A stretch of 64,000 nucleotides of DNA from Astropecten irregularis. Lineage: Eukaryota > Echinodermata > Asteroidea > Paxillosida > Astropectinidae. Below are positions 1 to 55,525 of the stretch, in pieces. The notes under the pieces were generated by a model. It had not been told where the DNA came from. It made no database searches and worked only from the letters and a program-made list of their open reading frames with translations. The stretch spans positions 21,452,001 to 21,516,000 of the forward strand of contig OZ020244.1 in the NCBI GenBank assembly GCA_963971285.1. Direction: 5' to 3'. Position 1 is the stretch's first letter. Each line of letters starts with the position of its first letter. Both the position numbers and the translations under genes were made by a program.

Positions 1-1563
1 AGCTTTTGTGCGCAGGATCACTGATCATGTGCCTGAAACAAACAGGCCCTGGCAGTTATAAGTGTCACAGATCCTAAAATGGAGATATTGTTGTTGCTGA
101 AATGAGAAGTGCCTTCCAATGGCACGGACCTCTTGGGATGCCATTTGCTTCTGCCTGTTGAATCCTGAGACAGTTCAGAAATACTGGAATGAAATCATCT
201 TTATTTCATTCTCTATGTTAACTACAACACCACATTCAAAAGCCTTAAGTGCCGTAGTTGGTGGTTTGTTTCAAAATTTGCCAGCTCTGAAAAACTTCCT
301 ACAATGACGAGGATGTTAAGTAGCTCCCACTTCAGGAAATGGAATGAAATAATTCAACAGCATGGTTTACCCATGGTGGAAGGAAATCCCTACTTCCTCC
401 AAGGTTTACCTAAGTTGAACAGCCTGATGACACTAGGAGAATTTCCAGGCAATAATTGTCTCAGGTTGCAACATACGCTGAAAGACACCTTGAGAAAACC
501 TTTTCTCGTCCCATTTCAGCTGGTTTTGGTGTTGGCAATTTTGTTCTGCCCAATGTGTGTTGCAAAGTTACGTAACGAGATGGCGGCTTTCAAATGTCCA
601 GCATATTTATACTTTGGGCCTTTCTCAAAGCTTGGCTCCGGCTCAGGCTCCTACTTTGTCTCTGTCATCCATGTGCTAAAAATATAAGTTGTTGAAGATT
701 TCACTGAAGATGAAGCTTTGTTTTCATTCTCAAATGAGAGAATCTACTTCCGAACCACAGCCAAAGGCCTCTATTTTGATACCCCTAATTTTAAAATGGA
801 TTCACGAAATGGAGTCAGAGCCTGAGCTGGAGCCAAGCTTTGAGAAAGGCCCCTTGTGACCGACAGTCCATACTAACTGTCGTTGTCTTATATCTGTTTG
901 TCCCTCAGATGACAAAGGTTGACAAGATGTCCACATCTTCAGGTGATTTCAGTCGAAGACTACTCCTAAAGAAAAAACACGGTGCTAAGCTGTTATATAT
1001 CTACATGACCTGTATGGTTTCTTGTCCCAGTCCAAAGTTTTTTTTAAACATGTGGCATTTTGTTTTTATGTTGCTGTGTTAATTTGTAAGTCTGGTTGAA
1101 TCCAGTTGACATGTTTCATCCCTCGCTACTCCAACCTGTACCCCAGCCTCCCCTTGACCAGGCCCAACCTGTATTCTCTGCCACTCAAAGCTTCAACAAT
1201 TTAACACAAGTTAAGCATTTTGAGGAATGTATTGTCAGTCATATTTTTCCAAATCAATGCATGAAAATGAAATCTTCTGGCATTATTAAAGAGAAAGACA
1301 AATGTCTTTGAAATTCATGGTGATAATTAAATTCATTTTAAATCAAGGCTGATCATTCTTGAAGAGATTTCAACTTGACCTACTTTTTGTTCAATGAAAA
1401 TCCTGGATTTTGAATCGTGAGGGTTAGAGAAATGCCAGATTGATGTAAGTTATACACGTAGTCATGACTCTCAGTCCACCCCTAGTCTTTCATGAAATGT
1501 GTGCCAAGTTATCGTTGCTTTTTTCACACACAACATGCAAGAATAATTGTATCGAGTATAGAC

Positions 1564-1917
1564 TTAAAGGTACGGTACAGAACTGGTAATAAACCAAATT
1601 CAGAAATGTTCACAGATTTATGTATAATAACTTACAGGGTATAGAGAGTTAAAATGTTTCTGCCTGAAAAAACCTGTATTTATCAAATGAATCAAATAGA
1701 CCGAAAATAGTTTTGATCTCCGAGATCCAAACCTCACAATTACGATTACCCTAGAATTTGCCTTAAGAATTGCAATGGTTTTTCGCAGTTTTCTACTGTT
1801 TCCAATGATCAATTGAGAAGAAAATTTCACAGATTTGTTTTTATTCCACGACAAAACAAGTTATGAACAGACTGAAGTTGTTCTGTAACTTTTACCAATC
1901 GTGTACTATAGCTTTAA
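1564..1917. mobile_element. TTAAAGGTA-ended MITE, copy 1
   Basis: Left end reads TTAAAGGTACGGTACAGAA and right end ACCAATCGTGTACTATAGC TTTAA, giving imperfect inverted ends. The interior carries the family hallmark, an AGAAATGTTCACAGATTTA block followed by AACTTACAGGGTAT. The same organisation recurs at 2421, 10672, 11703, 19946, 29835 and 58191. No coding capacity, so a non-autonomous DNA element is the simplest reading. Confidence 0.6.
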
Positions 1918-2050
1918 TAGGCTGGGGTCTGAATAGGGCATTGCATGCAACCTGTGTGCTCCATTGCAGACGGATGCACTGACCAAAGCTGGAGCTTGAT
2001 TCAGCTTCAGCCTGCTCCCAGTTAAGTGGAAGCACCCCCAATATCACTTT

Positions 2051-2170
2051 GGGCCTGTTTGTTTTATGCACGAGATCCGTGATCTGCAGATCCACGTTCC
2101 ATGTAGGATATGCTAAAATCGGATCCGGATCAACAAGACCATGGATCTCATGAGCATAACAAACAGTCCC
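2051..2170. mobile_element. small palindromic MITE (GGGCCTGTTTGTT ends)
   Basis: About 120 bp with inverted ends. The left end GGGCCTGTTTGTT and the right end, read inverted as GGGACTGTTTGTT, are each followed by a gcACGAGATCC or TCATGAGATCC block. A second copy is at 4791-4908, a half copy at 1-48 and a left end at 53759. Confidence 0.6.
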
Positions 2171-2420
2171 TTCACTATTTAAATTGCCTGCTCTGTCGCC
2201 CTCTTGTGTTGGATAAATGCCTAGTCCTTGCTCAGAGAAGTCACTGACCTTGTTCCACATACAGTAATTATACACTCTTTAATTAGGACATAGAACATAG
2301 TCACAGCCTTTCAGCCTCGTCTTGTGGTTAAGACTTTTGTCATGATACTTGGAAAAATGACCTGAATAATTTTGCATCATGTTGGTTGATAAAAATCTTT
2401 CAATTTTGTACTTTGTTAAC

Positions 2421-2776
2421 TTAAAGGTAGTATCATACTTTGGTAAGAAACCAAAAGAGAACTTAGAGAAGTGTTCACAGATTTACGTATAACTTACAGG
2501 GTATGAAGATGGTGGTGGTAGAAACATACCGTTAACATTTTATCACCCGAAATGGTGTATTTATCCAGAAATTACTAAAACAACAACCGAAAATCTTTTT
2601 GATCTTTTGAAAGATCAAAAATAAAAGAGAAACGACTTAAGAAAACTGTGGCTGTTTTTCACTGTTTTCTAAAAAATAATGTGCATAGATGACTGTTACT
2701 GTATCTTCCTTGATATTTTTGCCCATGAATCTGTATTTCTTTGATAAAAACCGAAGTATGATATTACCTTTAAGAC
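2421..2776. mobile_element. TTAAAGGTA-ended MITE, copy 2
   Basis: The ends are clean inverted repeats: CTTAAAGGTAGTATCATAC on the left and GTATGATATTACCTTTAAG on the right. The interior contains the shared TTCACAGATTTACGTATAAC block and a palindrome built on GATCTTTTGAAAGATC. Non-coding. Confidence 0.7.
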
Positions 2777-3431
2777 AATAAAAATCCACATTTGTATACA
2801 TTTCATTAATTCATTTATAGGATGCATGCACCACATTTTCTTTCCAGTAAGGTTTTAATAGCATGAAAGATGCACGTAGCGTGGATAAGATTAGTGAAAG
2901 TTCAGAGGATTAAGTGTGAATTTACAAACTTATTTTCTTTTTCTTCATATTTATCATTCCAAAACTGAGTTGTTTAATTGCAGCGTTGAACGTTGTGAAT
3001 GATTATTTCTTTGAAATATTGTTCAAAGCTGCCATTTTTTTCATTGCAATTTAATGCATATTTGGATGTACAAGTATGTCTGAATTATATGGCGCAAATC
3101 CAATGTGTACATTTTTTGTAAACATGCAATTTTTGTAAATTTGCCAATGATATTTTGGATTAAAGAAGGGATATTTAATAAAGAATAATTCTTGTTTATT
3201 TGTTTGTTATGTGGTTGGTTTTGTCAGAAGGAAAAGCAACAGTGGTGATTTTTTTTCATAATGAAATAAAACCAAAATATGTTTTAGGAGGGACTATTGA
3301 GAATAAGCAATAATAACCTACAAAATTAATCCCACTGGCGTTGTTTAAAGTGATATGAAGGGTAGGATTGGGGTCTTGTTAATCCAGTCTAGAGAATGAG
3401 CCATATTATTGGATTTGGATGGATTAAAGCA

Positions 3432-15800: not shown

Positions 15801-18800
15801 GATTATTAAATGGTGTTTCTGCAAACTGATCCACAAACACCAATCTGCATGTACAATACAACATAAGACGGGGACATATGATATTTCTCAGTCACCTTGC
15901 CAGTGGCCGTAGATCCAGTGAATGACACCTTGGACACAAGAGGGCTCTCACACAAGAGTCTGCCGACCTCTGCTCGATGTTTGATGGAACACGTCACCAC
16001 CTTCAGGACACCGGGTGGCACTCCAGCTTCTTCTGCTAACTGTTTTAGGTGACAAGCATGTGAACAGTTTTCAAATTCGAGGTTGGCTGAAGTATGACAT
16101 AAAAGCTTGTGAATTCTGCATGAGGTTGTGGTTTAGAAGTGAAATCATTGTTTATCATCAAATCAGCCTGAAATCAAGCAATACATCTTGAAAGCACTGA
16201 AAGTGTCTAAGGAATTATCAAGTTGCAAAGCCTGTGAGGATTATTGTCCACCATGCACAACTGCATCTGCTTATATTATTTGAATTGCAAATATCAGGTT
16301 ATTTTGCCTGGGGTCTATTGGATATTAAAATGTTTATACTGTCTACTCACCGGTAGCATAGCTAGTGCTGAGAGGGGCGTATCTTCTGCAGGTTTCACCA
16401 CTGCCGTGCATCCAGCTGCCAGGGCTGCTCCTAGCTTCCTCAGGATCATTGCACATGGGAAATTCCACTAAAAGATCAGAAAATACAGCGATTTGTTCAA
16501 AGTAGTTCATTCTTGAATTGAATTAAGGCAGCAATATTCAGAATAAGTATTTTATGAAAATATTGCAAGAGGGTGCTATTGCTGTTTCCATTCATTGCAT
16601 AATTTGAAAGTAGCAAGCCTAAATGATCATCAGGTAATTTTGTGTTGTGATAATGGCAAACTATATGACATGGGCTGGGTTTCACCAAACACTACGATTA
16701 ATCTTCAGATGACAATTGTCAGTATAGTGATTTGTATTATGACATCACACTTTGCTTAGCAATTAAAGATTAATTCAAACTTAAGATTAATATTAGTGCT
16801 ACGTACACGAAACCGGCTCCAGCATCACACAAATTATAGTCACTATAGGAGCTTTTGACATAAGAAAGTCCAACAGATTGGAACGGCAAACCATATCACC
16901 CAGGAAACAGACCACAGTTCAAATGAAATACACTCACCGGTGTGATCAAAGCTGCCACGCCCACTGGCTGCTTGAGGAGCATCATACGTTTGCCTTTCAC
17001 CATGGACGGTACGATGTCACCGTAGCAACGCTTGGCTTCCTCAGAGAACCACTCAAGGAAGGAAGCTCCGTAGTGGATCTCACCCCTGGCTTCGGCTAGA
17101 GGCTTGCCCTGATGAAATAAATCAAAAAGGAAATCCGTTTTACTTTCTTGAAGATTGAAGAGGCTATGGAGCTGGTCAACTACATTTCTTATAAGCCCTC
17201 TCCGAAAGTCCACCAGGAAAAATCGTTGATGGTTCTTGAATTTTGCTTGTTACAATTATCACCAGCCAAACTATTTACCATTTGAGAAGTTTACAACTAT
17301 TACCAGCCAAACTATTTACCATTTGAGAAGTTTACAACTATTACCAGCCAAACTATTTACCATTTGAGAAGTTTACAACTATTACCAGCCAAACTATTTA
17401 CCATTTGAGAAGTTTACAACTATTACCAGCCAAACTATTTACCATTTGAGAAGTTTACAACTATTACCAGCCAAACTATTTACCATTTGAGAAGTTTACA
17501 ACTATTACCAGCCAAACTATTTACCATTTGAGAAGTTTACAACTATTACCAGCCAAACTATTTACCATTTGAGAAGTTTACAACTATTATCAGCCAAACT
17601 ATATTTACCATTTGAGAAGTTTACAAAGTAATTACCAGCCAAACTATTTACCATTTGAGAAGTTTACAACTATTACCAGCCAAACTATTTACCATTTGAG
17701 AAGTTTACAACTATTACTAGCCAAGCTATTTACCATTTGAGAAGTTTACAACTATTATCAGCCAAACTATTTACCAATTGAGATGTTTACAACTATTATC
17801 AGCCAAACTATATTTACCATTTGAGAAGTGTACAACTATTACCAGCCAAACTATTTACCATTTGAGAAATTTACAACTATTACCAGCCAAACTATTTACC
17901 ATTTGAGAAGTTTACTACTATTATCAGCCAAACTATTTACCATTTGAGAAGTTTGCAATTATTACCATCGAAACTATTTACCATTTGAGAAGTTTACAAA
18001 GTAATTACCAGCCAAACTATTTACCATTTGAGAAGTTTAAAACTATTACCAGCCAAACTATTTACCATTTGAGAAGTTTACAACTATTATCAGCCAAACT
18101 ACTTACCATTTGAGAAGTTTACAACTATTACCAGCCAAACTATTTACCATTTGAGAAGTTTACTACTATTACCAGCCAAACTATTTACCATTTGAGAAGT
18201 TAACAACTATTACCACTTACCAGCCAAACTATTAAATACCATTTGAGAAGTTTACAAAGGAATTACCAGCCAAACTATTTACCAATTGAGAAGTTTACAA
18301 CTATTATCAGCCAAACTATTTACCATTTGAGAAGTTTGCAATTATTACCATCGAAACTATTTACCATTTGAGAAGTTTACAAAGTAATTACCAGCCAAAC
18401 TATTTACCATTTGAGAAGTTTACAACTATTACCAGCCAAACTATTTACCATTTGAGAAGTTTACAACTATTATCAGCCAAACTATTTACCATTTGAGAAG
18501 TTTGCAATTATTACCATCCAAACTATTTACCATTTGAGAAGTTTACAAAGGAATTACCAGCCAAACTATTTACCATTTGAGAAGTTTGCAAAGTAATTAC
18601 CAGCCAAACTATTTACCATTTCTGCTGTCAACAACTTGCCAAGTTCCTCCTGGTTCTCCATCATGAGTTCATAAAACCTCCTCAGGATGACACTCCTCTC
18701 CTTAGCTGTGGTCTCCCGCCAGCTCTGGAATGCATCGTAAGCAGCCTGGATGGCATCTTGGGTCTCGGAGACGCCGAGGTCCGGGACGTGGCCAATGACT

Positions 18801-19018
18801 GCTCCAGTTGCTGGATTGGTCACTGGAAAAGACGCCCCTGTGCTGGCATTGCCCTCTGTGATGGCATCTTGCAGGAGGCTGCGATGGTGTGAACTCGATT
18901 GATGGAGGCAACAAGATGTAACGGCAGGTGAAGGAGGCAGGGAGGCTTTCTTGAGTTTTGACAATTGAGTTCTCACCTGTAGAAGGGCTAGGGGCATGCG
19001 TCGCAGAGAAGACTGCAT
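12886..19018 (-). CDS. ALDH5A1: succinate-semialdehyde dehydrogenase, copy 1
   Basis: Coding exons: 18617-19018, 16938-17108, 16351-16467, 15896-16039, 15444-15587, 14807-14962, 13917-14086, 12886-13150, giving 522 aa (human enzyme 535). The family oxidises succinic semialdehyde to succinate with NAD in mitochondria, the last step of GABA breakdown. An R/K/S/L-rich N-terminus ([14 protein letters not shown]) fits a mitochondrial presequence. Catalytic Glu lies in [10 protein letters not shown] (exon 5) and catalytic Cys in GQTCVSAN across exons 5-6; the Arg of KFR, six residues before it, is kept. Oddities: the second Cys of the family's CVC redox pair is Ser; FGGxK near the end is FTGIK; and the N-terminal YINGAWV strand of copy 2 is replaced by ITEGNA. 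Intron 1 holds a 41-bp repeat array. Family assignment is certain; its exact substrate is not. Confidence 0.93.
13720..13870. mobile_element. palindromic MITE (CTGGGxxxxATTTC ends), intronic
   Basis: About 150 bp in SSADH copy 1 intron 7. The left end CTGGGACCGATTCCATAATT and the inverted right end CTGGGCTGGATTTCACAAAG are similar. The interior shares GCTAAGCAAAGTGTGATGTC, inverted, with the element at 16672. Non-coding. Confidence 0.55.
14198..14345 (+). repeat. tRNA-derived SINE (B box GGTTCGAATCC)
   Basis: In SSADH copy 1 intron 6. Begins ATGGCTTCTGACTGCCAAAC, with A-box-like TAAGAGCACGG near 14264 and a perfect B box GGTTCGAATCC at 14300-14310. The leader CCAAACGAACAAAGATAAAT.. is shared, inverted, with the copies at 39430-39670 and 28495-28670, showing a dispersed Pol III-derived family rather than a tRNA gene. 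Confidence 0.6.
14355..14720. repeat. degenerate GACCAA-rich low-complexity tract
   Basis: In SSADH copy 1 intron 6, directly after the SINE. Short GACCAA, GACTGA and GACCACA words recur at irregular spacings of roughly 10-20 bp on one strand. It looks like a decayed simple-sequence array; no fixed unit length can be set by eye. Confidence 0.4.
15720..15766 (+). ncRNA. hammerhead ribozyme-like relic
   Basis: In SSADH copy 1 intron 4. The order is GTCTC, CTGATGA (15726-15732), a stem GACT..AGTC, then AAAAC, GTT and GAGAC. GTCTC can pair with GAGAC as stem I. This matches the minimal type I hammerhead layout, with a very short stem III, described for Penelope-like retroelements. The core GAAA reads AAAA, so cleavage is probably lost. 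Candidate only. Confidence 0.4.
16672..16822. mobile_element. palindromic MITE (GGGTTTCACCAAAC ends)
   Basis: About 150 bp in SSADH copy 1 intron 2. The left end CTGGGTTTCACCAAACACTA and right end ACGAAACCGGCTCCAG are imperfectly inverted. It contains the TGACATCACACTTTGCTTAG block shared with 13720-13870. Confidence 0.5.
17255..18616 (-). repeat. 41-bp intronic minisatellite carrying a splice donor
   Basis: About 33 head-to-tail copies of a 41-bp unit fill most of SSADH copy 1 intron 1. In gene sense each unit contains CTCAAATGGTAAATAGTTTG. The true exon 1 donor is GCAGAAATG|GTAAATAGTTTG, so the array begins exactly at the exon border and every unit repeats the donor-like AAATG|GTAAATAG. 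Some units vary by 3-bp insertions, by TTAT for TTAC, or by ATCG for AGCC. Confidence 0.9.
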
Positions 19019-19060
19019 AGTAAGTCACCAATCGTCCTTTCTGTTACTGAATCTGCAAAA
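19019..19060 (-). promoter_or_regulatory. SSADH copy 1 5' UTR with candidate acceptor
   Basis: Upstream of the ATG at 19018 the minus strand reads CTTTTTGCAG|ATTCAG (near 19053), a good 3' splice site. That suggests the ATG exon is preceded by a non-coding first exon. A CpG-richer block at 19800-19930 is a possible promoter for it. Inference. Confidence 0.35.
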
Positions 19061-25198: not shown

Positions 25199-31885
<6,687 letters not shown>

Positions 31886-32421
31886 GTTAATGGTCTGTCT
31901 GTGGGTCAACGTCTGCACTGGGATATATCAGGTAGGAGAGGATTACAAAGGTTAATAATTCACTCCATGTCATATAGTCGAGGCCTGTCAAACATAATCC
32001 AGTGAATGGATTAATTATTTCCTTCAATGAAATCAATTTGAGAAAAGAATGATTACCAGTGATTGACAATACAGAAAAAGTGTTCTGTAACTTCACCGGA
32101 TGCAAGTAATAATTAATGTTAAACTGGAGTTGCATACCAGTACCTGAAAAGCGAGCTTTGCACTTTGCAGGCAGCAGGGTGCTTTGACAAATTGACATAC
32201 GTACAATAACACACTTTGAAGTTGCAGCGGCAGCCACTTTATATTTTAAAATGCCCTCTGCTCTGTTGTGCGCATCAGTTTAGTCCAATAGCCTAGTTTG
32301 TACATGCTTTGTCATGAATTTTAATGTTGTATTTCACTAGACGAGAGTAGACTCATTTAATGATTGTTTCCTTTTCCTAATCACAAATCACCAGATCACA
32401 ATCATAACAATGGCATTCAAC

Positions 32422-33423
32422 GGTTTCAGGTCAACTCGGTCCGTAACCAACTCGGTCTGAGTCAACTCGGTCCGTGACCAACTCGGTCCGTAACCAACTC
32501 GGTCCATGACCAACTCGGTCTGTAACCAACTCGGTCCGAGGCCAACTCGGTCCGTAACCAACTCGGTCCGTGGCCAACTCGGTCCGTGACCAACTCGGTC
32601 CCTATGGGAAAATACACGCAAAAACGTCTGGTAATTTTGTTGCAGCAACACGAGTACGAAGTCTCGCAAATTGCGTGAATTAAACTATTCATTTAGGTCT
32701 ATTTATTTATTTATTCATTAATTTTCATTTATTATCTTAAAAACATTCAAAGAATGAAAAATACATTGGCAGGTGCTGCCCAGGGCCTGACAAAAAGTAA
32801 AAAAAACAAAAAAAAAAAACCCTGTCTTCAAAAGACGTGCCTTCCCAAACACCTGCCAATTATAATGTTATATGTATATAAACAGATTAATCACAACAAA
32901 GCTAAAAAATCAAAAACAAAACACAAAACAATCATCATTATTATTCATTAATTTATTTATTAATTCTAAACATAAAAAGCACATTTTCATAAGGCATTTG
33001 ACTTCGTGTATAATTTAATTAATATTTTAATTAAAATTGTATTGTGCCATTTTATCAAATAATTATGGTATCAACATAATAAGACATAATTTATTTGTTA
33101 AATGTTTCAGCCACAAGCAAAACATATTATGTTATGATGACATTAAAAACATTAATGCAAATAGCCTACATGTTGTACACTGCTGCTGCAAACTGCATGG
33201 ATTCTTGTTTGTGTACGTTTCCCATAGGGACCGAGTTGGTCACGGACCGAGTTGGTTACGGACCGAGTTGGTCACGGACCGAGTTGGCCTCGGACCGAGT
33301 TGGCCACGGACCGAGTTGGCCACGGACCGAGTTGGCCACGGACCGAGTTGGCCTCGGACCGAGTTGGTCACGGACCGAGTTGACTCGGACCGAGTTGGTT
33401 ACGGACCGAGTTGACTGGCACCC
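32422..33423. mobile_element. foldback transposon, copy A, with 8-bp TSD
   Basis: 1002 bp flanked by the exact 8-bp direct repeat CATTCAAC (32414-32421 and 33424-33431). The termini are GGTTTCAGGTCAACTCGG and, inverted, GGGTGCCAGTCAACTCGG. Each terminus runs into an array of a 16-bp unit (CCAACTCGGTCCGTAA type): about 11 units on the left, about 12 inverted on the right. The outermost unit variants keep the same order on both sides. The roughly 600-bp AT-rich centre has no domain-bearing frame. Non-autonomous, with an unidentified transposase source; an 8-bp duplication fits hAT or P-type transposases. Confidence 0.85.
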
Positions 33424-33739
33424 CATTCAACATTTTGAACAAAAATTGAAAAACCAACACTAGGCTAGCACATCGTCAAACCACGATCATAATCAAGAAA
33501 ATCATGTAGGCCTAACGTTAGGCCTATAAAAATAATAAAGTAATCCTTTCCTACCTCGGTGCTGGATGAAATACCCGCTGAGCTTAACTGAACAACCTGT
33601 ACTTTGACCAGTGACACAGCGCTCATGAGCGCTCAGTCACAACCCCAGGGTCGATCATGTCACGCTTGATTGCACTCTACAAACAACAGCTGTGAAAACA
33701 ATCAACCTCGGATCCTTAACATGTACTGTGTACATGTAA

Positions 33740-40645: not shown

Positions 40646-43600
40646 TCATTCGAGGGCATTCAGTTCAAAGCGTTGAAACTTGTCGACGTCGTAAAAACTA
40701 GCTCTGACCTGCCTGCCGCCAAAGTATCGTCCGTTCAAATCCACCACAGCTGTGCATTGAGAAAACAAAATTAAGAGGGTAAAATTGATGGTCAAAGTTC
40801 GCCAACTTGATATTCGACTGTTCTGTGTAGTAACTTGGTTCAAGTCACTAGAATGCATCACAAGGATACAGTGGAACAAACTATAACAAACATGATGGGA
40901 TGCACAGAAATTGTTTGACATAGTGGTTGTTTGTTAAAGTGAACAATGTTCAGCATGCCTATACATTGTACATGAAAATTGGCAGCCAAATAGTAAAGAT
41001 TATTATAGTGGCGTTCCACTGTACTGCACAGTGTGATATTTGAATGTTTGAAGGTTTGCGGACTTAAGAGCTCAGGGGTCGATTTCACCAAACTCATCGT
41101 AACTTATAGTAGGACATATGATGCATTGCAGCCCTACGTAGAATAGGCCCCATACAATGGGTTATCCTTTGTTACTGAGTTACAATCAATCGTAGGGCTT
41201 TGTGAAATCGACCCCAGGTGCTGTGTCTTAATATGGAGCTATTCCACTTACCTTTGATAGCCGATTCCATTCTCTGAAATTCAACAAAGATCCTCACAGC
41301 GCTATCGTCGTCAGCATTGGGCTCCTTTAAACAGAAAACAGACAATTTAGTTCTCATCAAAAAGTAGCAGGGTATTGCTCACGAGCAATGCTAACCACAT
41401 GGGATTTTGGCTGAAGGGCTTTGCTTGCTTTAAAAAAGAAAACTTCTCTATTAAAGTATTGAGTGTGGAATTGGTCCAAAATCATAAATAAGAGATCTTG
41501 CGCTTGGGTACTGAAAAACAAAACATTAACAGGATTTACCTTTTATATTATACTTTGGATTTGTCAAAGAAATGCAGATTCATGGACAAAAATATGAAGA
41601 CAGATAGAGTAACAGTCATCTGTGAAAATTTCAGTCCCATACGGTGCCCACTTTTTGAAAAAACATTGAAAAACAGCCACAGTATTTCTTAAATCTTTTC
41701 TCTTTTATTTTTGATCTTTTAAAAGACGTCACTTCCAACAGATTGAGGGTTTTGGGTGTCAAATATACATGAAATGCATCAACTACACATTGGATAAATA
41801 CACCATTTGAGGCAGAAACATTTTAATGGTATGTTTTTACCGACACCATCTTCATACCCTGTAAGTTATACGTAAATCAGTGAACATTTCTGTTTTGGTT
41901 TCTTACCTTCTGGATACTACCTTTAAGACTAAAGGAAATTTGGTTTGGTTTTGATAACAACATGTCAGGAATATTTATAGGGAAAAACTGTTTTGAAATG
42001 GATTCGGAGGTCCCATTTGGACTGGTACACCACTGCTTTGAGACCAAGGAGGGAGGTATCTCTAAGGAAATTTCACTAAATTTCCACTAAACTCTAGAGG
42101 TCTATTCATTATTGTTTGGAGTTGTTTACTCCAGTCATGCTCCAGTTCTAATGAGCTATCATACGGCTAGTGTCTCACCTCGTAGATGACAACACGGACT
42201 ACCTCTCCATACTTGGCGCATTCCTCGGCCGTCTCTGGCTGAAGATCATCATCCACCTCCCCAGGACCAACCATATTCTGGACGAGAATAAAAACGTTTT
42301 TATTGATTTATTCGTTGAGGCGATAGAATTGTGCAAACAATTTATTGCCCTTCAACGACGTGGATAAGCACTTCACTAAGTGCCTTTTGAGTGCACATGA
42401 AACAATCACGTGCTGGCTCAGGTAGGATTCAGACCCACGACCTCCTGCTTACTAGTTCAGATGACATACTGCTTGGCCACCTTGCAGAATAAACACATTG
42501 CCAACAATATCACTTCAAGGGTCTGTATCAAATGCAGTAGCCAGTTTATGTGATGCAGTGTTCTGCATTCAGACTCCAAATACTGTCAGTATGCTTGGTT
42601 CCGATTGTTACAGTAATATGTCCCTCCCCAAATGTTGATTGCTGGTTTTATTTACACTTCTATGCAATCAAGTCATTCAAAGAAGCTTGTTCATGATTTG
42701 TGATGGCTGAAAAAGTTCAACGTCACATTCAGTGGCCTGTATTAACTTACCATTAGCAGTACGACCTTGGTTGGGTTCTTGATGACTGACTTGATGTCTG
42801 GTTTGGGTGGAGGGACGGCTGTGGTGGAAGGCCCAGGCAGACCAGGCCCCAGTAGACCAGGCCCCGGCAGACCAGGCCCCGACAGACCAGGCCCGGGAGG
42901 GGGTGGCATCATAGGCGGTGAATCTACATTTGGACAAATTATTATTATTATATTATTATTATGAATGGTTTATTAAAACTGTACTCTTCGCCGCTAAAAG
43001 CAGAATTACGAATACAATTTACAATTTAAAAACACATTAATAAAACACAAAGTACATTTAAAACGAGAGATAATAAAACGGCTAAAGGCTAAGGATAATA
43101 AGATGTGCCACAAAAAGGTCACGTAATTGAAATTAAGAAAGAGTGATACATATAAATTATATCACTAAGAAAAACTGGTAAAATATAAGCAGAAATCGTA
43201 AATGATTGGCAAGTTGTAATACGTGTACATGTCATAAGCTAGAAGAGGTTCATAGGGAAGGGAATGAAGGGAGAGGGAGGTGGTGAGGGATAGAGAGGGA
43301 CACACTGTTAAGCAATATAATCAAAGCTACAAGAGGGCTGTTCTGGTACCTCTTAGTGCGACAAAAAGGCACTGTTATGGTTGTACAATTTCTTAACTGA
43401 CGTCCATGTGATTGGTGACGAGTCTGAGGAATCCAAGTACTGAAATATTTAGAGGTGAGTAGAGACTTTGCAAACTTAACACACAACTGATTTCGCCTGT
43501 CACTGAGAGTGGATAAGCCACAAAAAGCAAGTGCATCATCATATCCATTATATCCAGTGCCAAGTATAATTTTACAAACCCTCTTCTGGAATTTTTCTAA

Positions 43601-46600
43601 AGCTTTAACATGTTTCAAAGTGAGACCAAAATTCCATACTGGTGTGGCATATTCTAATAATGGCCTTATGAAACCAAGATATATAGAGACCAAATCATTT
43701 ACAGGTAAACAAAACCGTTTCAATGTTTTTAAGATGTACAGTTTTTTGTTAGCCCGAGATATCATATTCTGGACATGGGCATCCCATTTAAGGTCCGCCT
43801 GAACTATAACACCAAGGATGCGGTGGGATGTGTTTTCCTTTAAAACATTGTCCGATATGTGAAGTTGTTGCAGTCTATGTGGTTCTCTCATGAAGCTGAC
43901 ATTCATCACGCTACATTTGACAGGATTGAGTTTCATGTGGTTGGCTGATGACCAATGATGAATGTGATCAAGATCCTCTTGCATATGACTTTGTTGGTTT
44001 TTGGTTAGGCATTCAACCAACGTAAGATCGTCAACGTACTGCCAATGGCTGGACAATAAACCGTTAGGAACATCATTCACAAGTGCCATGAAAATGACTG
44101 GACCGAGTCTGGTGCCTTGTGGGACACCAGCATTCACTGAAAGCCAGTTGGAAGTAGAGCTATGGTAGCGGACACACTGTTGCCTTTCCTGGAGGAAGCT
44201 GCAGATCCATGGGATAATGGAAGCTCGTACACCGAGGTTTAGCAATTTGTCAATTGCCACATTGTGGTCGACATTGTCAAATGCCTTACTATAATCGGTA
44301 AGGACAATTCTTGAGGTTGAATTGCTCACATCTGAATGTTTATATAACATATTCATTAGGTCAACAAGGCAGTGTGTTGTGGAAATTGCTTTCCTGTTTC
44401 CAAACTGTTGCGAGTTGATGCACGGCTCTATATCAGACAGTACCCACTTGGACACAAACTGTTCTGCAAGCTTTGCAAAATTATCGGTTAGCGAGATGGG
44501 TCGCAGTTTCTGTAGAGTGGGTGGATTACATTTGGGGATCGGCACTACCACTGCCCTCTTCCACTGACGGGGCATAATCCCTTCATTGTATGACGTGTTC
44601 AGGATATCTGCCAGCGGTGTGCTCAGTTCAAGTGCAAAGTTCTTGATGATTCGCGGTGGGATGCCATCTGGTCCACCACTCTTATTGGTTTTTATTTTGC
44701 TCAATTCTTTGTAGACATCCCACGGTTGGACAATTGGGCAAGGGTGAGGTGTTGGGAGAAAAGCAGGCAGGTCAGAAGTCGCCAAACTCGGAAGATCACT
44801 GGCGACAGCAATAAAATGCTCGTTGATGACTTGCGCCTTTTGTTGATCGGTGTAATGATGATTGGATGACGTTGGGATATCAATGCAGGGTTGGGTTTTG
44901 ACACTTCTTGTCATTATTTTGATGTGTTTATGCCATGACGATGGATTTGCATATTTCAGTCGTTGTATCCTTCCACGGTAGTACTGTTTCTTGGCAATTT
45001 TGATTTCTCTCCTGATTTTATTGCGTAGATATTTCCACAAAGTGTCTCTGCCCATATGAAATGCACGTTGACGTTTCAAGATAAGGGACTTGATAGCTGG
45101 AGACATCCATGGCTTGTCAACTATATGAAGTTTAATGGTCTTGCAAGGGAAGAAGATATCGATGGCAGACTGTAGTGTGTTATAGAAATTGTCACATTTC
45201 GTTGACGCATGAGAACCAAAAAGCCGACGACCAAGAAATCAGTTTTCATGAAGCTTTCATAAAGCTATGCAAGTTACACTTGCCCTTCATCGACATAATT
45301 TTATGAGCACTGAGTGCTCAGTGCTTGTTGAGTGCACATGAAAAAATCATTCGCTGGGTCAGGTGGGATTTGAACCCATGACCTCCTGCTTACTAGTGCA
45401 GATGCCATACCGCTAGGCTATCGAGCTAACTGGGGTCAGCGGGGTGCATTGAATCCAATATACCGTAGTGGCAGGTACCGCAATTAATCACAACTTCTAT
45501 TCTAATGATTTTCATAAAGGTGTTTGCAAGCCAATTTTCCATTTACAGTGGAATATTTTTTATATTTTACATATCTCAAAAGACGTCACTTCAAACAGAT
45601 TGAGAGTTTTGGGTGTCAAATATACATGACATGCATGAACTACACAGTGATTCAACATATTGTAAACATTATGTGGAAGTGTTCAGAAAATTTGGAACCG
45701 TGAACATGCATATAGTGACAAAGAATACGCAGTTGTAATTTCCCTGACAAGTAAGATCTGTGAGTCCATCAAACACAAGCTGAGGCTGTGTCGCAAATCT
45801 CTGGCTGCGGCTACAAATTACACACGTACCTATGGCAGCCACTAGCCAGTGACTGCAGCCATTCAATAGACTTGTGCATCATTTGCGGTCGCAGCCAGAG
45901 ATTTGAGACACGGCCTGACACTCAAGGTAAAAAATAGACTGGCGCCAATGAAAAAGTCACCCCTTCCTATCAGTGATTTCTCAGCCACACCATAAGGAAC
46001 TAGACAAAGATGGCTGCCTTTAATTGCAAGTGATTCTGTAAGGGCCTGTCTCATCTAACCTGTTTTTCTCTCAATGATCTTGCCTCCTCGTTTGCTGGTC
46101 TTCTCTACCTGCAGCGCAGTGCTGATTCCTTGCTCCGATTTGCCCAGTCCTCTTCCCTCCTGGAAACCGTACTTGGCCATGATCTTGGCCGCGACCGAGT
46201 TGATACTGCGAAAGAGGAAAACAGAAGCATATGAACAATGAAGCTTTTTGGGAATCAAGTTCCAACATCTGGTACGTCAACAAAAATGTCAACAAGTTTC
46301 AGCAGACTATTAGAGTACCCTTGCTCGAATTCATGTCTGGGTTTTGACTTAAGTCCTGCAACACTGGAGGACAATGAATCCCTCTGCTTCATGAAAGAAC
46401 CTTTGTTGGCTTTGCATAGTTTAAGCAGGGTTCTATTCAGCATAAGAAAATTATTCAAGCAGTTCTATTCCACTGCTAAGGTGTAGGCAGAAAGCTCGGA
46501 CAAAACCTGTACTTAAGCGGTTAAGAGAAGGTACATGTTACTCACCCCATACCAACAGGAACCTGAAATCCTCCGCCCTTGGTGCCAGGCGGGGGTCCCA

Positions 46601-49556: not shown

Positions 49557-52500
49557 TGTGATGCTTGAATTAGGACGTCAACTTGAACTTCTGTGGCAAG
49601 GGTATGACAAAATGGACACTGCAAATACCGTGTAAGGGAAATAAAATTTGAGGCAATGCACCGTGGAGGATTGGAGGTTAGCATGGAACAAGACATCAAG
49701 CCTTAATTCAATAATATCATGGAGATTTTGGACAAGGGCAAATGAAACCGATAATTGTAAAGCTGAAGTCTACATCACCATGACAGATGGTTTAGTAGCA
49801 ATGATCATGGGCACCGGACAAGTTGACCAAGGGACAAGTCGACTCGAGACAAGTCGACTATATTATTTTACAATTCAGTTACATTTTTACGTTGGTATGT
49901 CACGCGCACCTAGCCTGCGCATCGCATTGGCAGAAATGGACTTAAGTTGTCTTTGCGGTCGAGCTGTCTCTGTCTCGAGTCAAGTAGTTCCGTGGTCGAC
50001 TTGTCTGATATTCACTGATCATAAACCTTGGTCCGTACGATCAGCGCAACTAACAAAAGTTATATTCATCGGACAAGGATTCAGTTGATTTATTGTAATA
50101 AGAACAAGTTCTGCAATTTGAATTGTACTCTAGTCATCCCGGCCAGTGGATTTCAGACATTTTGACTGTGTTGACAAATCAGGCCCGGGATGGACATGGA
50201 TTGTGCCTAGGCTATGGCATATATGCGTACGGAGACCGACCGTCAACCCCAAAAGTCAAAAAAGAGAGTTCGGCGCCCCATTTTTACTGGGTCTAGCGTA
50301 CGGCATGAAATTTTATGGTGCACAAAATTTAAGTCTGATATTGGAGACCTAACTCTGCCATTGAAAAGCAAAATTTGATAGGTAAAGAGACCAATTTATA
50401 TTTGTCTCTGAATCTTTTGGTGGCTTTGATTTAGATCAGGGGCAGGGGTGGTGTGTAGAAAATCATGATTGAAGGGCGACCTCAACGTTCCACAACTACA
50501 GTTTGTAATGAACGCTGCATTTCTACCTCCATGATGCAACGGTTTCAGGTCAACTCGGTCCGTAACCAACTCGGTCCGAGTCAACTCGGTCCGTGACCAA
50601 CTCGGTCCGTAACCAACTCGGTCCATGACCAACTCGGTCTGTAACCAACTCGGTCCGAGGCCAACTCGGTCCGTAACCAACTCGGTCCGTGGCCAACTCG
50701 GTCTGTGACCAACTCGGTCCCTATGGGAAAATGCACGCAAAAACGTCTGGTAATTTTGTTGCAACAAAACGAGTACGAAGTCTCGCAAATTGCGTGAATT
50801 AAACTATTTATTTAGGTCTATTTATTTATTTATTCATTTATTATCTTAAAAACATTAAAAGAATGAAAAATACATTGGCAGGTGCTGCCAAGGGCCTGAC
50901 AAAAAGTAAAAAAAAAAAAAGAAACCTGTCTTCAAAAGACGTGCCTTCCCAAACACCTGCCAATTATAAATCTTATGTTAAATTATGTTATATGTATATA
51001 CACAGATTAATCAAAACAAAGCTAAAAAATCAAAAACAAAAACACAAAACAATCATCATTATTATTCATTAATTGATTTATGAATTCTGAACATAAAAAG
51101 CACATTTTCATAAGGCATTTGACTTCGTGTATAATTTAATTAATATTTTAATTAAAATTGTATTGTGCCATTTTATCAAATAATTATGGTATCAACATAA
51201 TTTATTTCTTCACGGTTTCAGCCACAAGCAAAACATATTATGTTATGATGACATTAAAAACATTAATGCAAATAGCCTACATGTTGTACACTGCTGCAGC
51301 AAACTGCATGGATTCTTGTTTGTGTACGTTTTCCCATAGGGACCGAGTTGGTCACGGACCGAGTTGGTCACGGACCGAGTTGGCCTCGGACCGAGTTGGC
51401 CACGGACCGAGTTGGCCACGGACCGAGTTGGCCACGGACCGAGTTGGCCTCGGACCGAGTTGGTCACGGACCGAGTTGACTCGGACCGAGTTGGTTACGG
51501 ACCGAGTTGACTGGCACCCGATGCAACACGGCTAACGAGTGCGCGGATCTGCACCATAAAAACGGGTAATTTTTAGTCATTTTAAAGCATTAATAACACA
51601 TTTGCAGATGGTAACAGAAAGCAGAATGCAATAGTTAGCAAGTACTTACGATTGTGTGAATCTGAGATTTTCTTTTATCACATAATAATGTCACTTTTTA
51701 GGCGATGGTGTTACGATGAAAATTGGACGCGCTAGATTCCCACTGTGCATAATAGGTCTTGTAACCTTTTACATTGCTAGTTTTATGCGTGAAATGAACG
51801 GTGTGCTCCACGAGTGCAGGGATCTGACTATTTTGTCTTTATTTTTCAACATGTTCCAAAACTTCAAGTAAATTTGTCCTGCATGTTTGTGATACTGAAA
51901 AATCATTCTATGAAAAAGCTACACATCCAGTCCTTTCTCCTCTTAATCATTTTACTCATTCATTCTTCAGTTAATTGTTTAAATCTGTTTGATTTCTAGG
52001 CCTAGTTTGTTTATTTGAATTTTAATTAAAAAAAAAATCTTATTCAATGGACAATGATTTTCCAATGCAAAGATTGGAAAATGAAAGAAATTTGGGAGAA
52101 TTAAAGAAATTTGAAGAATAGAACTTAATTATTTGATTATTCAACTCAGAAACAATTTTATCATTCATTTTCAATCAGCAAAACAAATTATTGTTTTGTA
52201 GTTTGAGAATATGTGTACATTTCTAACAAAGCAATTACTGCATGAAGCTGGATTCAAACCACTAACGTGTGAAGACTGCACAAGTTGGTATTCTACTGAC
52301 TGAGGTTTTCAGCCCTCCCTGTATTGGTAGTGTAGTGTGAAACTGTCAAATTGTCAGTATGGTCAGGACCATCGCCATATTGGGGGGCTAAACTCCAACA
52401 AGTCATAATAGCACTCCGCACTAATAATGTCACAAAATCCCCGGATGTCAGACAAACATTGTCTCACACACGTAGTGTACATGCACACGCATACCCACCA

Positions 52501-52773
52501 CATGTTTGCATGGTTGCAATGTTTGTCTGAGATTGGGTGCTATTTTTAGCGGAAGTGCGGAGCGCTATTTATGGTATAGGCCTACTAGATGACCCGCAGC
52601 ATTTTTTCTTCGTTCACGTGATAGCCTTCAGTCACAGTAACATTTTTCTTCGTGTCCATACAGTATTAATGGAGGATTAATATCAGTTGTTCTCACCGAC
52701 ATCACAATGCATGTTTTGTCATGTGCATTGATACATTCTACCCAGGATCCTTTGCAGCCATCAAACTTTCATC
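49557..52773. other. divergent intergenic region with a foldback element
   Basis: RBM17 (-) and CCNQ (+) start on either side. Immediately upstream of RBM17 (49557-49640) is its likely 5' UTR and promoter. Around 49815-50010 GACAAGTCGACTCGAGAC-like words recur in both orientations, perhaps a small inverted element. The foldback transposon copy B fills 50541-51519. A tRNA-like B box (GGATTCAAACCACTAACG, minus sense) lies near 52250. The segment from 52560 to 52773, with a CACGTG E-box near 52615, is the probable CCNQ promoter. Confidence 0.5.
50541..51519. mobile_element. foldback transposon, copy B, with 8-bp TSD
   Basis: 979 bp, flanked by exact direct repeats GATGCAAC (50533-50540 and 51520-51527), different from those of copy A. 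Termini, 16-bp arrays and the AT-rich centre are closely similar to copy A at 32422-33423. The arrays differ by single units and point changes, and the centre has small indels (near 51200). Independent target sites with identical ends prove transposition of a defined unit. Confidence 0.87.
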
Positions 52774-54944
52774 ATGGCAACAGCTGCCATGGCAACAACC
52801 TCAGCAGGTCCCATGGTGACTCCTGAACCGGCAGTTGCCAGGGCTCATTTCAGGGTGGCCCAGTACATGATGGAGGCGGGTGTCAAGCTCCACTTGCAGT
52901 CGGCCACTGTGGCCTCGGCCTGTACCATCTACTATCGCTTCTTCTCAGTGTGCGATATGCGTGACTACGATGCTCATCTGGTCGGTACGGCTGCCATCTA
53001 TCTAGCAACCAAAGTTGAGGAGCAGCCTGTGAAATTGAGAGATATCATCAATGTGTGCTACAGGTCAGTTGACCAATTAAAAAGGAGTTTTCTCAATTGT
53101 TGACATTTTCTTTTCAACCTGTCCACTCTTAGAGCTGATTTCAAAATATGCCTGCTTATAAACATCTATCTCACTTGGTCCAATTTCAAAGCAAACTACA
53201 AATCTGCCTGTCCACCTCTAGTCCCAGTAAAGATTGTAAAGTTCACTTCTAGTAGAAGTTCAGCAACAGGTTTGCAACTTATTAAGACGGTTAACTGCAG
53301 TACATATTTCCAATTTGTTTTTGCTTTTAGGATTCTACACAAGGCTGAAGGACCCTTGGAAGTAGGGAAGAAGTACTGGGACCTGAGAGAGAGTGTGGTC
53401 AACTGTGAACTTCTCCTCATTCGCATGCTCAAGTTCAACCCCAAGGTAAAGAAGATGTTTCTGAATACCGGTACTGGTAGTGGAGACACAGTGGTATATT
53501 AGGGTTGGTTGATGCACCTTGTCATGATGGCACCTCTGGGCAGAGAGGTGGTGTTGAAGGACCTTGAGGTATTGATTGAGTCTTCCTGTTGATGACTAGA
53601 GAGCATAGCTGGGTGGGATGTCCACAAGATTATATCTTTGTAAAGACTCTCAGCCAAACTTATAAGTTTAGATTCAGCATTAACAGTGTTGTCAGAGCCA
53701 AAGCAATACCTGTGTTGTCATAGTTTGTATTGATGCATACATTTGTTGATCAAACTTAGGGGCCTGTTTGTTTAACGCACAAGATCACAAATTCTGATGA
53801 TATAGACAAATACCGGTATGACCAGACCTTCATGGACGCTGCCATACAGGGCACCATTACATAGATCCCTCATGGTTCCACTAGTGCGGAAAATGGCATG
53901 CAACACAGGCAAATGATTTTCTTTTCAGTATCATGTACAAAAAGGTATGGTATATATCAAGCCTAAAATGGCCCCTGTGTGTATTCAGCAGAAGATTGAC
54001 TGGTGTTGGCTGCAAAGTAATGGCGGGCCTTTTAGGGGCCTCGCCGGGTTTGACCTACAAGCTCATGAATAAAAACTAATTCCCAACAGGTAACCCTCCC
54101 TCATAAGTACATGGTGCACTACCTGAAGTCACTGCGTGACTGGCTGGACCAGGATATCTGGAAGCATACGCCGATCTGTCAGACGGCCTGGGCCATACTC
54201 AGGGACAGCTACCACGGTGCCATCTGCATCCGCACTAAGCCACAGCACCTAGCCGTAGCCGTCATATACTTTGCCCTGCAGTGTTATGGCGTTACCATGC
54301 CCCATCGGGACGAAGAGGCAAAAAAGAAATGGTGGCAGGTAAATACTGCAGTGTAATAGTACCGGGGATCGCTTTCATCAAACACTATCAATTGTAGGAC
54401 GTATGATGCATTGCAGCCCTATGTAGGATACGATGGGTTATACTCGTGGTACGATCGATCATAGGGCTTTGTGAAATCTACCCCTGTACAGATAAACTAG
54501 TAAAGGTTTGTTTTTTTTTCAAAAGTAGCCTCAATATGTGGTTATATAATCATATTTATTTTACTGTGGCTTACATTTGCCATTGAACTCTCATGGAAGC
54601 ACAACTGAAAAGAGTTTTTGGTTTTAACTTCAAATGCTGATTGGTTTCTGGCAGTCTTTCTTGGACTCTTGGACTCTGTGCTAGTAGTCAGACTTGCTCT
54701 TTGGGAGTCTGGCCTAGCTTGTCAAAAATAAGCAACTTACTCTATGAATTGAAATCATAATGTGATTTTTGATATGCAAGATGCACACAGTTTATGAGGT
54801 CTAGTCGGGAAAAACAGTGGGATGTTGAATTCTTACTCTTTGTTTATAAACCAACAGGTTTTCAGCGAGGATCTCACAGAGGACAAAGTCCAGGACATTG
54901 TAACAGAACTGATTGACATGTATGATATGGAGACAAAAGTGTAG
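52774..54944 (+). CDS. CCNQ: cyclin Q (CDK10 partner), 4 exons
   Basis: Exons 52774-53063, 53331-53445, 54090-54338, 54858-54944 join to 246 aa (human 248). The cyclin core starts at [18 protein letters not shown] and runs through [31 protein letters not shown] (KVEE is the cyclin-box signature), [39 protein letters not shown] and the ending [14 protein letters not shown]. The order and length match cyclin Q (FAM58A/CCNQ), which activates CDK10 and is implicated in ETS2 turnover and ciliogenesis. Start ATG at 52774 is preceded by an in-frame-free leader; [12 protein letters not shown] is low-complexity. All introns are GT..AG. It is followed within 80 bp by an 85-bp tandem array that probably lies in its 3' UTR. 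Confidence 0.93.
54364..54485. mobile_element. palindromic MITE (GGGGATCGCTTTCATC ends)
   Basis: 122 bp in CCNQ intron 3, 25 bp after the donor. The ends GGGGATCGCTTTCATCAAAC and GGCTTTGTGAAATCTACCCC are inverted. Internal GTATGATGCATTGCAGCCCT is shared with 41075-41215. Confidence 0.65.
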
Positions 54945-55022: not shown

Positions 55023-55525
55023 TTGTGCTGCCCCTGGTCAGTTGCCTCAGTGTTGCTGGTCACTGCCTCAGTGCCCCTAGCCACTGCCTTGCTGCCCCTC
55101 GCCAGTGTTTTGCTACCCCTGGACAGCTGCTTCAGTATTGCTGGTCGCTGTCTCGGTGACCATGGCCACTGCCTTGCTGCCCCTGGCCAGTGTTGTGCTG
55201 CCCCTGGACAGTTGCCTCAGTGTTGCTGGTCACTACCTCAGTGCCCCTGGCCACTGCTTTGCTGCCCCTCGCCAGTGTTTTGCTACCCCTGGACAGCTGC
55301 TTCAGTATTGCTGGTCGCTGCCTCGGTGACCATGGCCACTACCTTGCTGCCCCTGGCCAGTGTTTTGCTACCCCTGGACAGTTGCTTCAGTATTGCTGGT
55401 CGCTGCCTCGGTGACCATGGCCACTGCCTTCCTGCCACTGGCCAGTGTTTTGCTACCCCTGGACAGTTGCCTCAGTGTTGCTGGTCACTACCTCGGTGCC
55501 CCTGGTCACTGCCTTCACTTTGTTC
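55023..55525 (+). repeat. 85-bp tandem repeat downstream of CCNQ
   Basis: About six units of 85 bp, each carrying GCCCCTGGACAGTTGCCTCA, GTGTTGCTGGTCACTGCCTC and GGCCACTGCCTTGCTGCCCC blocks. The unit is not a multiple of three and has no stop on the plus strand in several frames, so overlapping open frames shifted by 85 bp arise by chance. Positioned in the presumed CCNQ 3' UTR; AATAAA near 55924 is the likely poly(A) signal. Confidence 0.8.

Follow-up and report, generated by a model that had tools for sequence, protein, structure and literature searches.

Foldback elements are believed to have multiple origins, in more than one transposase superfamily, and the role of the arrays at their ends is known in part, through THAP binding in Galileo. 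Composite termini built of arrays occur in Drosophila FB and in the TU elements of sea urchins. The latter, reportedly the subject of work by Liebermann and Hoffman-Liebermann in 1983-85, are said to be foldback elements with short tandem units, 15 bp in length, in the outer part of their inverted repeats, and to have 8-bp duplications and a variable middle. Our literature search gave no paper devoted to TU elements; the 1983 work is cited in PMC4079207. In excerpts of PMC3169594, Tm1 of root-knot nematodes is presented as a Mutator/Phantom foldback element with duplications of 8-10 bp, mostly 9, and the 61 copies analysed are called senescent. In Galileo, the THAP domain of the transposase binds at more than one position within the long repetitive TIRs (PMC3688188, in excerpt).

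The window, by which we mean the whole 64,000-nt stretch of Astropecten irregularis DNA that was analysed, holds two copies (A and B) of an element with composite array termini of this kind. They very probably belong to a young non-autonomous family of foldback-type DNA transposons (class II, cut-and-paste). A literature search with the 16-bp unit sequence of this family returned one paper on bayberry markers and one on a mycobacterial mutant, unrelated as far as their titles tell.

Anatomy of copies A and B

Copy A (1002 bp, 32422-33423) begins GGTTTCAGGTCAACTCGG and ends CCGAGTTGACTGGCACCC. It lies between exact 8-bp repeats, and the first-pass annotation gave its coordinates with these duplications (32414-33431), as well as its letters, correctly. 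Copy B (979 bp) lies between two octamers of another sequence. The features of both copies, in window positions, are as follows.

32414-32421, no strand: left target-site duplication of copy A, CATTCAAC
32422-32429, plus strand: left terminal octamer of copy A, GGTTTCAG, asymmetric, without inverted counterpart at the other end
32432-32601, plus strand: left array of copy A, 10.7 units of a 16-bp repeat, CAACTCGGTCCGTAAC-like
32602-32612, plus strand: inner arm junction of copy A, CTATGGGAAAA, common in inverse to the right arm
32613-33217, no strand: body of copy A, ~0.6 kb, not long enough to hold a transposase gene
33218-33227, minus strand: inner junction, right arm of copy A
33228-33413, minus strand: right array of copy A, 11.7 units of 16 bp
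33416-33423, minus strand: right terminal octamer of copy A, TGGCACCC (GGGTGCCA when read inward)
33424-33431, no strand: right target-site duplication of copy A, CATTCAAC
50533-50540, no strand: left target-site duplication of copy B, GATGCAAC
50541-51519, plus strand: copy B, with arrays at 50551-50720 and 51340-51509
51520-51527, no strand: right target-site duplication of copy B, GATGCAAC

The tandem arrays reported earlier for both ends of copy A recur in copy B, with 10.7 units on the left and 10.7 on the right. They had been described as standing in place of plain inverted repeats. The arrays are indeed present, but the arms of copy A are inverted repeats as well, 91% complementary over 172 nt, and thus the inverted repeats are built from arrays and not replaced by them. 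With arms of inverted short tandem units, the element belongs to the foldback type, a descriptive class. The arms are predicted to pair on a single strand, a prediction made without a shuffle control at that length.

Seen from the outside, each arm consists of an 8-base end, GT, units starting with CAACTCGGTC, and a closing CAACTCGGTCCCTATGGGAAA common to both arms. The outermost 8 bases differ between the sides and, both read inward, are not inverted copies of one another. The outer three units (16, 15, and 16 bp, with the tails TAAC, AGT in the 15-bp unit, and TGAC) follow one order on both sides, as had been noticed for the outermost variants, while the order of the inner units differs between the left and right arms.

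In their alignment, A and B have 942 identities, with mismatches at 19 positions and gaps at 59. Their flanks, compared over 300 bases, are unrelated, with best local matches of just 13 bases. At up to one mismatch, CAACTCGGTCCG has 45 matches in the window, all 45 inside the two copies, compared to an average of 0.10 in shuffled sequences (n = 100). The body was rightly said to carry no transposase. In copy A it contains no frame of 120 aa. Two such frames run through the right array of that copy, and every frame of at least 120 aa that touches A or B extends through an array and lacks a Pfam match above the cut-off.

Other features are dispersed around the two copies. Frames on the minus strand at 31391-31927 and 18566-19024 share an N-terminal stretch of aldehyde dehydrogenase (Pfam Aldedh for each), which suggests a duplicated gene; the best PDB relatives of the former are succinate-semialdehyde dehydrogenases, and the latter overlaps at its end with a 41/166-bp tandem array (17250-18621). 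An open frame of 662 aa at 43250-45238 (minus strand), with a reverse transcriptase domain, probably comes from a retrotransposon. Past copy B, at a distance of 1.2 kb, there is a frame with a cyclin N-terminal domain (52732-53103, plus strand), followed by an 85-bp tandem array (55026-55515) that is open throughout within a 188-aa frame.

Copy number, target duplications and empty sites

The termini were searched throughout the genome (475.7 Mb, 168 contigs), as the first-pass annotation had proposed. With up to two mismatches allowed, the left end was found at 423 places and the right end at 302, against 6 (left) and 7 (right) for reversed-pattern controls, revealing a high copy number. Copy A used as a query gave 419 candidates; 40 of the 419 were scored, all 40 with at least 89% identity over the main match, and because copy B is absent from these 40, the scored set does not comprise every copy. 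The first 100 places of each end, all exact, are located on contigs C1, C8, C9, C10, and part of C11. They form 87 pairs, spaced at 922-1110 bp in 71 cases, further apart in 14, and closer in 2. Unpaired among these exact ends are 13 left and 13 right; 7 of the 26 were read, and one of the other 19 belongs to a copy found by the copy A search.

In total, 111 pieces were read (L001-L110 and copy B). Five of them (L021, L044, L045, L047, and L050) gave no pair of ends and 106 did, although in L048 the pair is spurious, its left end being a chance match 6.6 kb away. The sample was thus set at 105 copies. Overall similarity was the ground for choosing 29 of them, and the remaining 76 were taken for their exact ends or as copy B; that the ends are conserved in this sample is therefore not independent evidence.

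Tabulation of the flanking 8-mers, also proposed earlier, disclosed duplications in most copies. Among the 105, the duplication is exact and 8 bp long in 85, has one mismatch in 7 and two in 3, is exact and 9 bp long in 3 (L018, L024, and L079), and is missing in 7. The corresponding numbers for the 29 similarity-chosen copies are 24, 2, 0, 2, and 1. There are 84 distinct targets among the 85 exact 8-bp duplications, the repeated one being poly-G in L041 and L042, and these two copies also account for both matches in the swapped-flank control (2 of 10,920). A weak symmetric bias was observed in 83 targets, with R at position 1 accompanied by Y at 8 (p 0.0016), and T at 2 by A at 7 (p 0.0019). 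It extends to the inner positions 3/6 (p 0.023) and 4/5 (p 0.0057). Both A and B targets end with CAAC, but most others do not, and a preference for this motif was dismissed as chance.

Empty sites were searched by comparing the joined flanks of 106 copies with the sequence read. The junction is crossed in 25 alignment rows, some of which are self matches. In three of the six alignments displayed, the site is clean, with one copy of the target in an unbroken relative (L004 in L046, L071 in L004, and L090 in L047); in the other three (L007, L016, and L005) the junction is unclear. Duplications combined with empty sites are the mark of transposition of a foldback-type DNA transposon, and together with the unrelated flanks of A and B they bear out the initial view of the element as a foldback transposon dispersed by transposition.

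Copies of standard size (900-1070 bp) number 86. Their most frequent unit numbers are 11 on the left and 12 on the right (34 of 86), and the 15-bp unit at offset 26 is present in 77 of the 86 left arms and in 77 of the 86 right arms. Left ends with a 16-base second unit were found at 14 places, three of them in copies read (L010, L091, and L103). Median divergence from the majority consensus is 2.3% (range 0.7-5.2%), and between copies it is 4.2%; this low divergence indicates a recent spread of the family. No sign of gene conversion between the two arms of an element was detected in 77 of the 86 copies, after leaving out the 9 with more than six differences: shared mutations amount to 0, against 0.14 in shuffles.

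Inverted arrays that are as long and as well matched as these can fold into hairpins, and they can favour deletions and inversions. One such deletion, probably across the foldback, appears to be represented by L043 (G000:C8:30448521-30449573, positions 501-553), a copy of 53 bp in which the two ends are nearly adjacent, flanked by ATTGTAAT and CTTGTAAT.

Search for an autonomous partner

No transposase-bearing relative was found among the copies read, in the five of nine Merlin loci that were read, or by comparing MULE and Merlin loci with the listed exact ends. The body is conserved across all 86 standard-size copies, and variation comes from other repeats inside 13 longer copies (L031 to L042 and L046), two of which, L032 and L039, are without much of the body. 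These longer copies were rejected as autonomous candidates because of the repeats they carry, several of which have their own inverted ends. The repeat inside L037 is found also in L040, and another is common to L032, L041, and L042. At two places, G000:C15:517618-521536 and 1025706-1029620, other repeats are nested in one identical, partly palindromic pattern.

Copy L032, 3.4 kb in length, lies between matching 8-bp flanks, and each of its arms has 8 units. Its interior was considered as an autonomous body and discarded: among the 40 matches scored of 2085 candidates, those other than the self match stop near query positions 79 and 2704 or cover shorter parts. Since they break off or stay partial, the interior consists of separate repeats found elsewhere. 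From ~738 to 3365 it holds a repeat of ~2.3 kb (here with a 375-bp insert), with scattered GTAACGGAATTACG motifs in both orientations, which is possibly another element with repeated motifs.

Loci L044 and L045 were likewise put aside, as their left end with two units lies inside sequence common to both loci and was taken for a remnant. Gene-like sequence, also common to the two, is located beside it, and in L044 one frame matches a C2H2 finger with a score that falls just short of the Pfam cut-off.

Merlin domains are found at nine loci in the genome. In the five loci read, neither the 12-bp unit (up to two mismatches) nor a credible end is present, and the two 18-mer matches (up to four mismatches) in L113 and L114 were rejected as element ends because the surrounding sequence does not resemble the element. 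L112 (G000:C15:3717000-3721300, positions 939-2853) contains a Merlin element with an open frame of 315 aa; the element has GG ends and inverted repeats and is flanked by a 9-bp duplication, AAATGTATC. Its ends, GGGTTAGTGTAG, differ from those of the foldback family.

MULE loci number 33, 13 of them in open frames of at least 439 aa. On contigs with complete coverage of exact ends, the shortest distance to an end is 145,871 bp for the 13 MULE loci located there and 131,076 bp for the 5 Merlin loci; these distances hold for exact ends, and a mismatched end would escape. With no end near or in the tested loci, both superfamilies are weakened as the source of the enzyme.

Probable mode of movement and described elements of similar design

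Cut-and-paste movement in trans is the best reading, because it explains together the duplications, the empty sites, and the copies devoid of an enzyme. A transposase supplied by some other locus would recognise both ends and excise the element, and filling in of the staggered cut at its insertion would create the 8-bp (sometimes 9-bp) duplication. THAP binding in Galileo provides, by analogy, a model for the function of the arrays, which would most likely be repeated transposase binding sites spaced by about one and a half helical turns. Such putative sites would help a non-coding element to compete for the enzyme, while the last 8 bases on each side would be the cleavage ends. Whole units are gained and lost in the arrays, presumably via slippage or unequal exchange. 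Counting against this reading are the copies without matching flanks (7 of 105), the exact ends left unpaired, and the three displayed junctions that gave no clean empty site and, for movement in trans, the lack of an autonomous partner or transposase in the loci examined. A more daring and rather doubtful extension sees the arrays as multi-site loading platforms for a superfamily not yet tied to foldbacks (e.g. Merlin, hAT, or an undescribed one), with asymmetric cleavage ends, and with array length setting the transposition success of each copy.

As to the superfamily, Mutator (Phantom/Tm1-like) could tentatively be placed first, Merlin and hAT are each an unlikely choice, P is less likely still, and any other comes last. 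A Mutator/Phantom (MULE) transposase would move the family as it does Tm1, with which the composite design, the range of duplication lengths, and the lack of a clear target consensus are shared (PMC3169594, in excerpt), and MULE loci in long open frames are available in the genome. Tm1 duplications are, however, mostly 9 bp, whereas 85 of 105 are exact 8-bp and 3 of 105 exact 9-bp ones here, and all 13 MULE loci on the completely covered contigs are more than 145 kb away from the nearest exact end.

The first-pass annotation suggested a hAT or P-type transposase, and one or the other of these, taken jointly, is conceivable to a similarly tentative degree. Duplication length fits both, and the weak target bias recalls nTnnnnAn, the target preference of hAT. 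Against both, ends of hAT and P elements usually start with CA/TA; those of the family start with GG, and three of its duplications are 9 bp long. For P, there is the precedent of Galileo, a foldback-like element carrying a P-type transposase (PMC3573991 and PMC3688188, in excerpt). Neither can be deduced from 8 bp alone because the duplication lengths of Merlin and of the Mutator-type Tm1 overlap.

The chances of a Merlin (IS1016-like) transposase are slimmer. Both ends of the family have GG and its duplications are 8 or 9 bp long, features given for Merlin in the accessible text of PMC8101967, and the nine domain loci include L112 with its open frame. This is opposed by the differing ends of L112, by the missing unit in the loci read, and by the dissimilar sequence around the matches in L113 and L114.

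Segmental duplication, or a dispersed pair of minisatellites, is a most improbable substitute for a transposon: L041 and L042, near-identical 1391-bp copies on one contig with poly-G flanks in both, could be a duplicated pair, and the sequence common to L044 and L045 extends past their remnant, but for the family as a whole this origin is refuted by the duplications (84 distinct targets) and the three clean empty sites, along with the unrelated flanks of A and B.

Hundreds of closely similar young copies with varying unit numbers would make the relation between array length and mobility measurable. Going by description and not by sequence, the sea-urchin TU elements may be the closest of all to this family, with units reportedly of 15 bp against 16 bp here.

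The remark in the first-pass annotation that the termini are unlike standard ones goes too far: it is justified in comparison with plain TIRs, but composite array termini have already been described, in Tm1, Tetris, and Galileo. The following comparisons are based on partial texts of the papers cited. Merlin elements resemble the family in GG ends, 8- or 9-bp duplications, and, in some families, imperfect TIRs with internal tandem repeats, but are not called foldback in the available part of PMC8101967, and the Merlin loci read here are without the family's ends. Galileo of Drosophila (P superfamily) has similar foldback-like TIRs with tandem repeats, and differs in 7-bp duplications, long units, and known coding copies (PMC3573991, PMC3688188). 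Tetris of Drosophila virilis is likewise a foldback element with tandem repeats in its TIRs, no known coding copy, and duplications of 8-10 bp, while its units are ~220 bp long, its TIRs reach up to 1,735 bp, and three copies are structurally complete (PMC4079207).

Tm1 shares with the family composite TIRs comprised of asymmetric terminal motifs (7 bp in Tm1) outside the inverted part, variable numbers of short tandem units (mostly 14 bp in Tm1), and an inner motif; furthermore, its duplications span 8-10 bp, most copies have no transposase, and no clear target consensus is reported for it, which we count as a likeness (PMC3169594). It differs in unit length (14 bp against 16), unit sequence, terminal motifs, the prevailing 9-bp duplications against 8 bp, and in its 61 analysed copies, called senescent, compared to hundreds of young ones here, among which no transposase-bearing copy was seen (PMC3169594). 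We thus rate the family as one of the foldback kind, an already known type, to be set beside Tm1, Tetris, and Galileo according to their descriptions, and among the described systems compared its design is nearest to that of Tm1.
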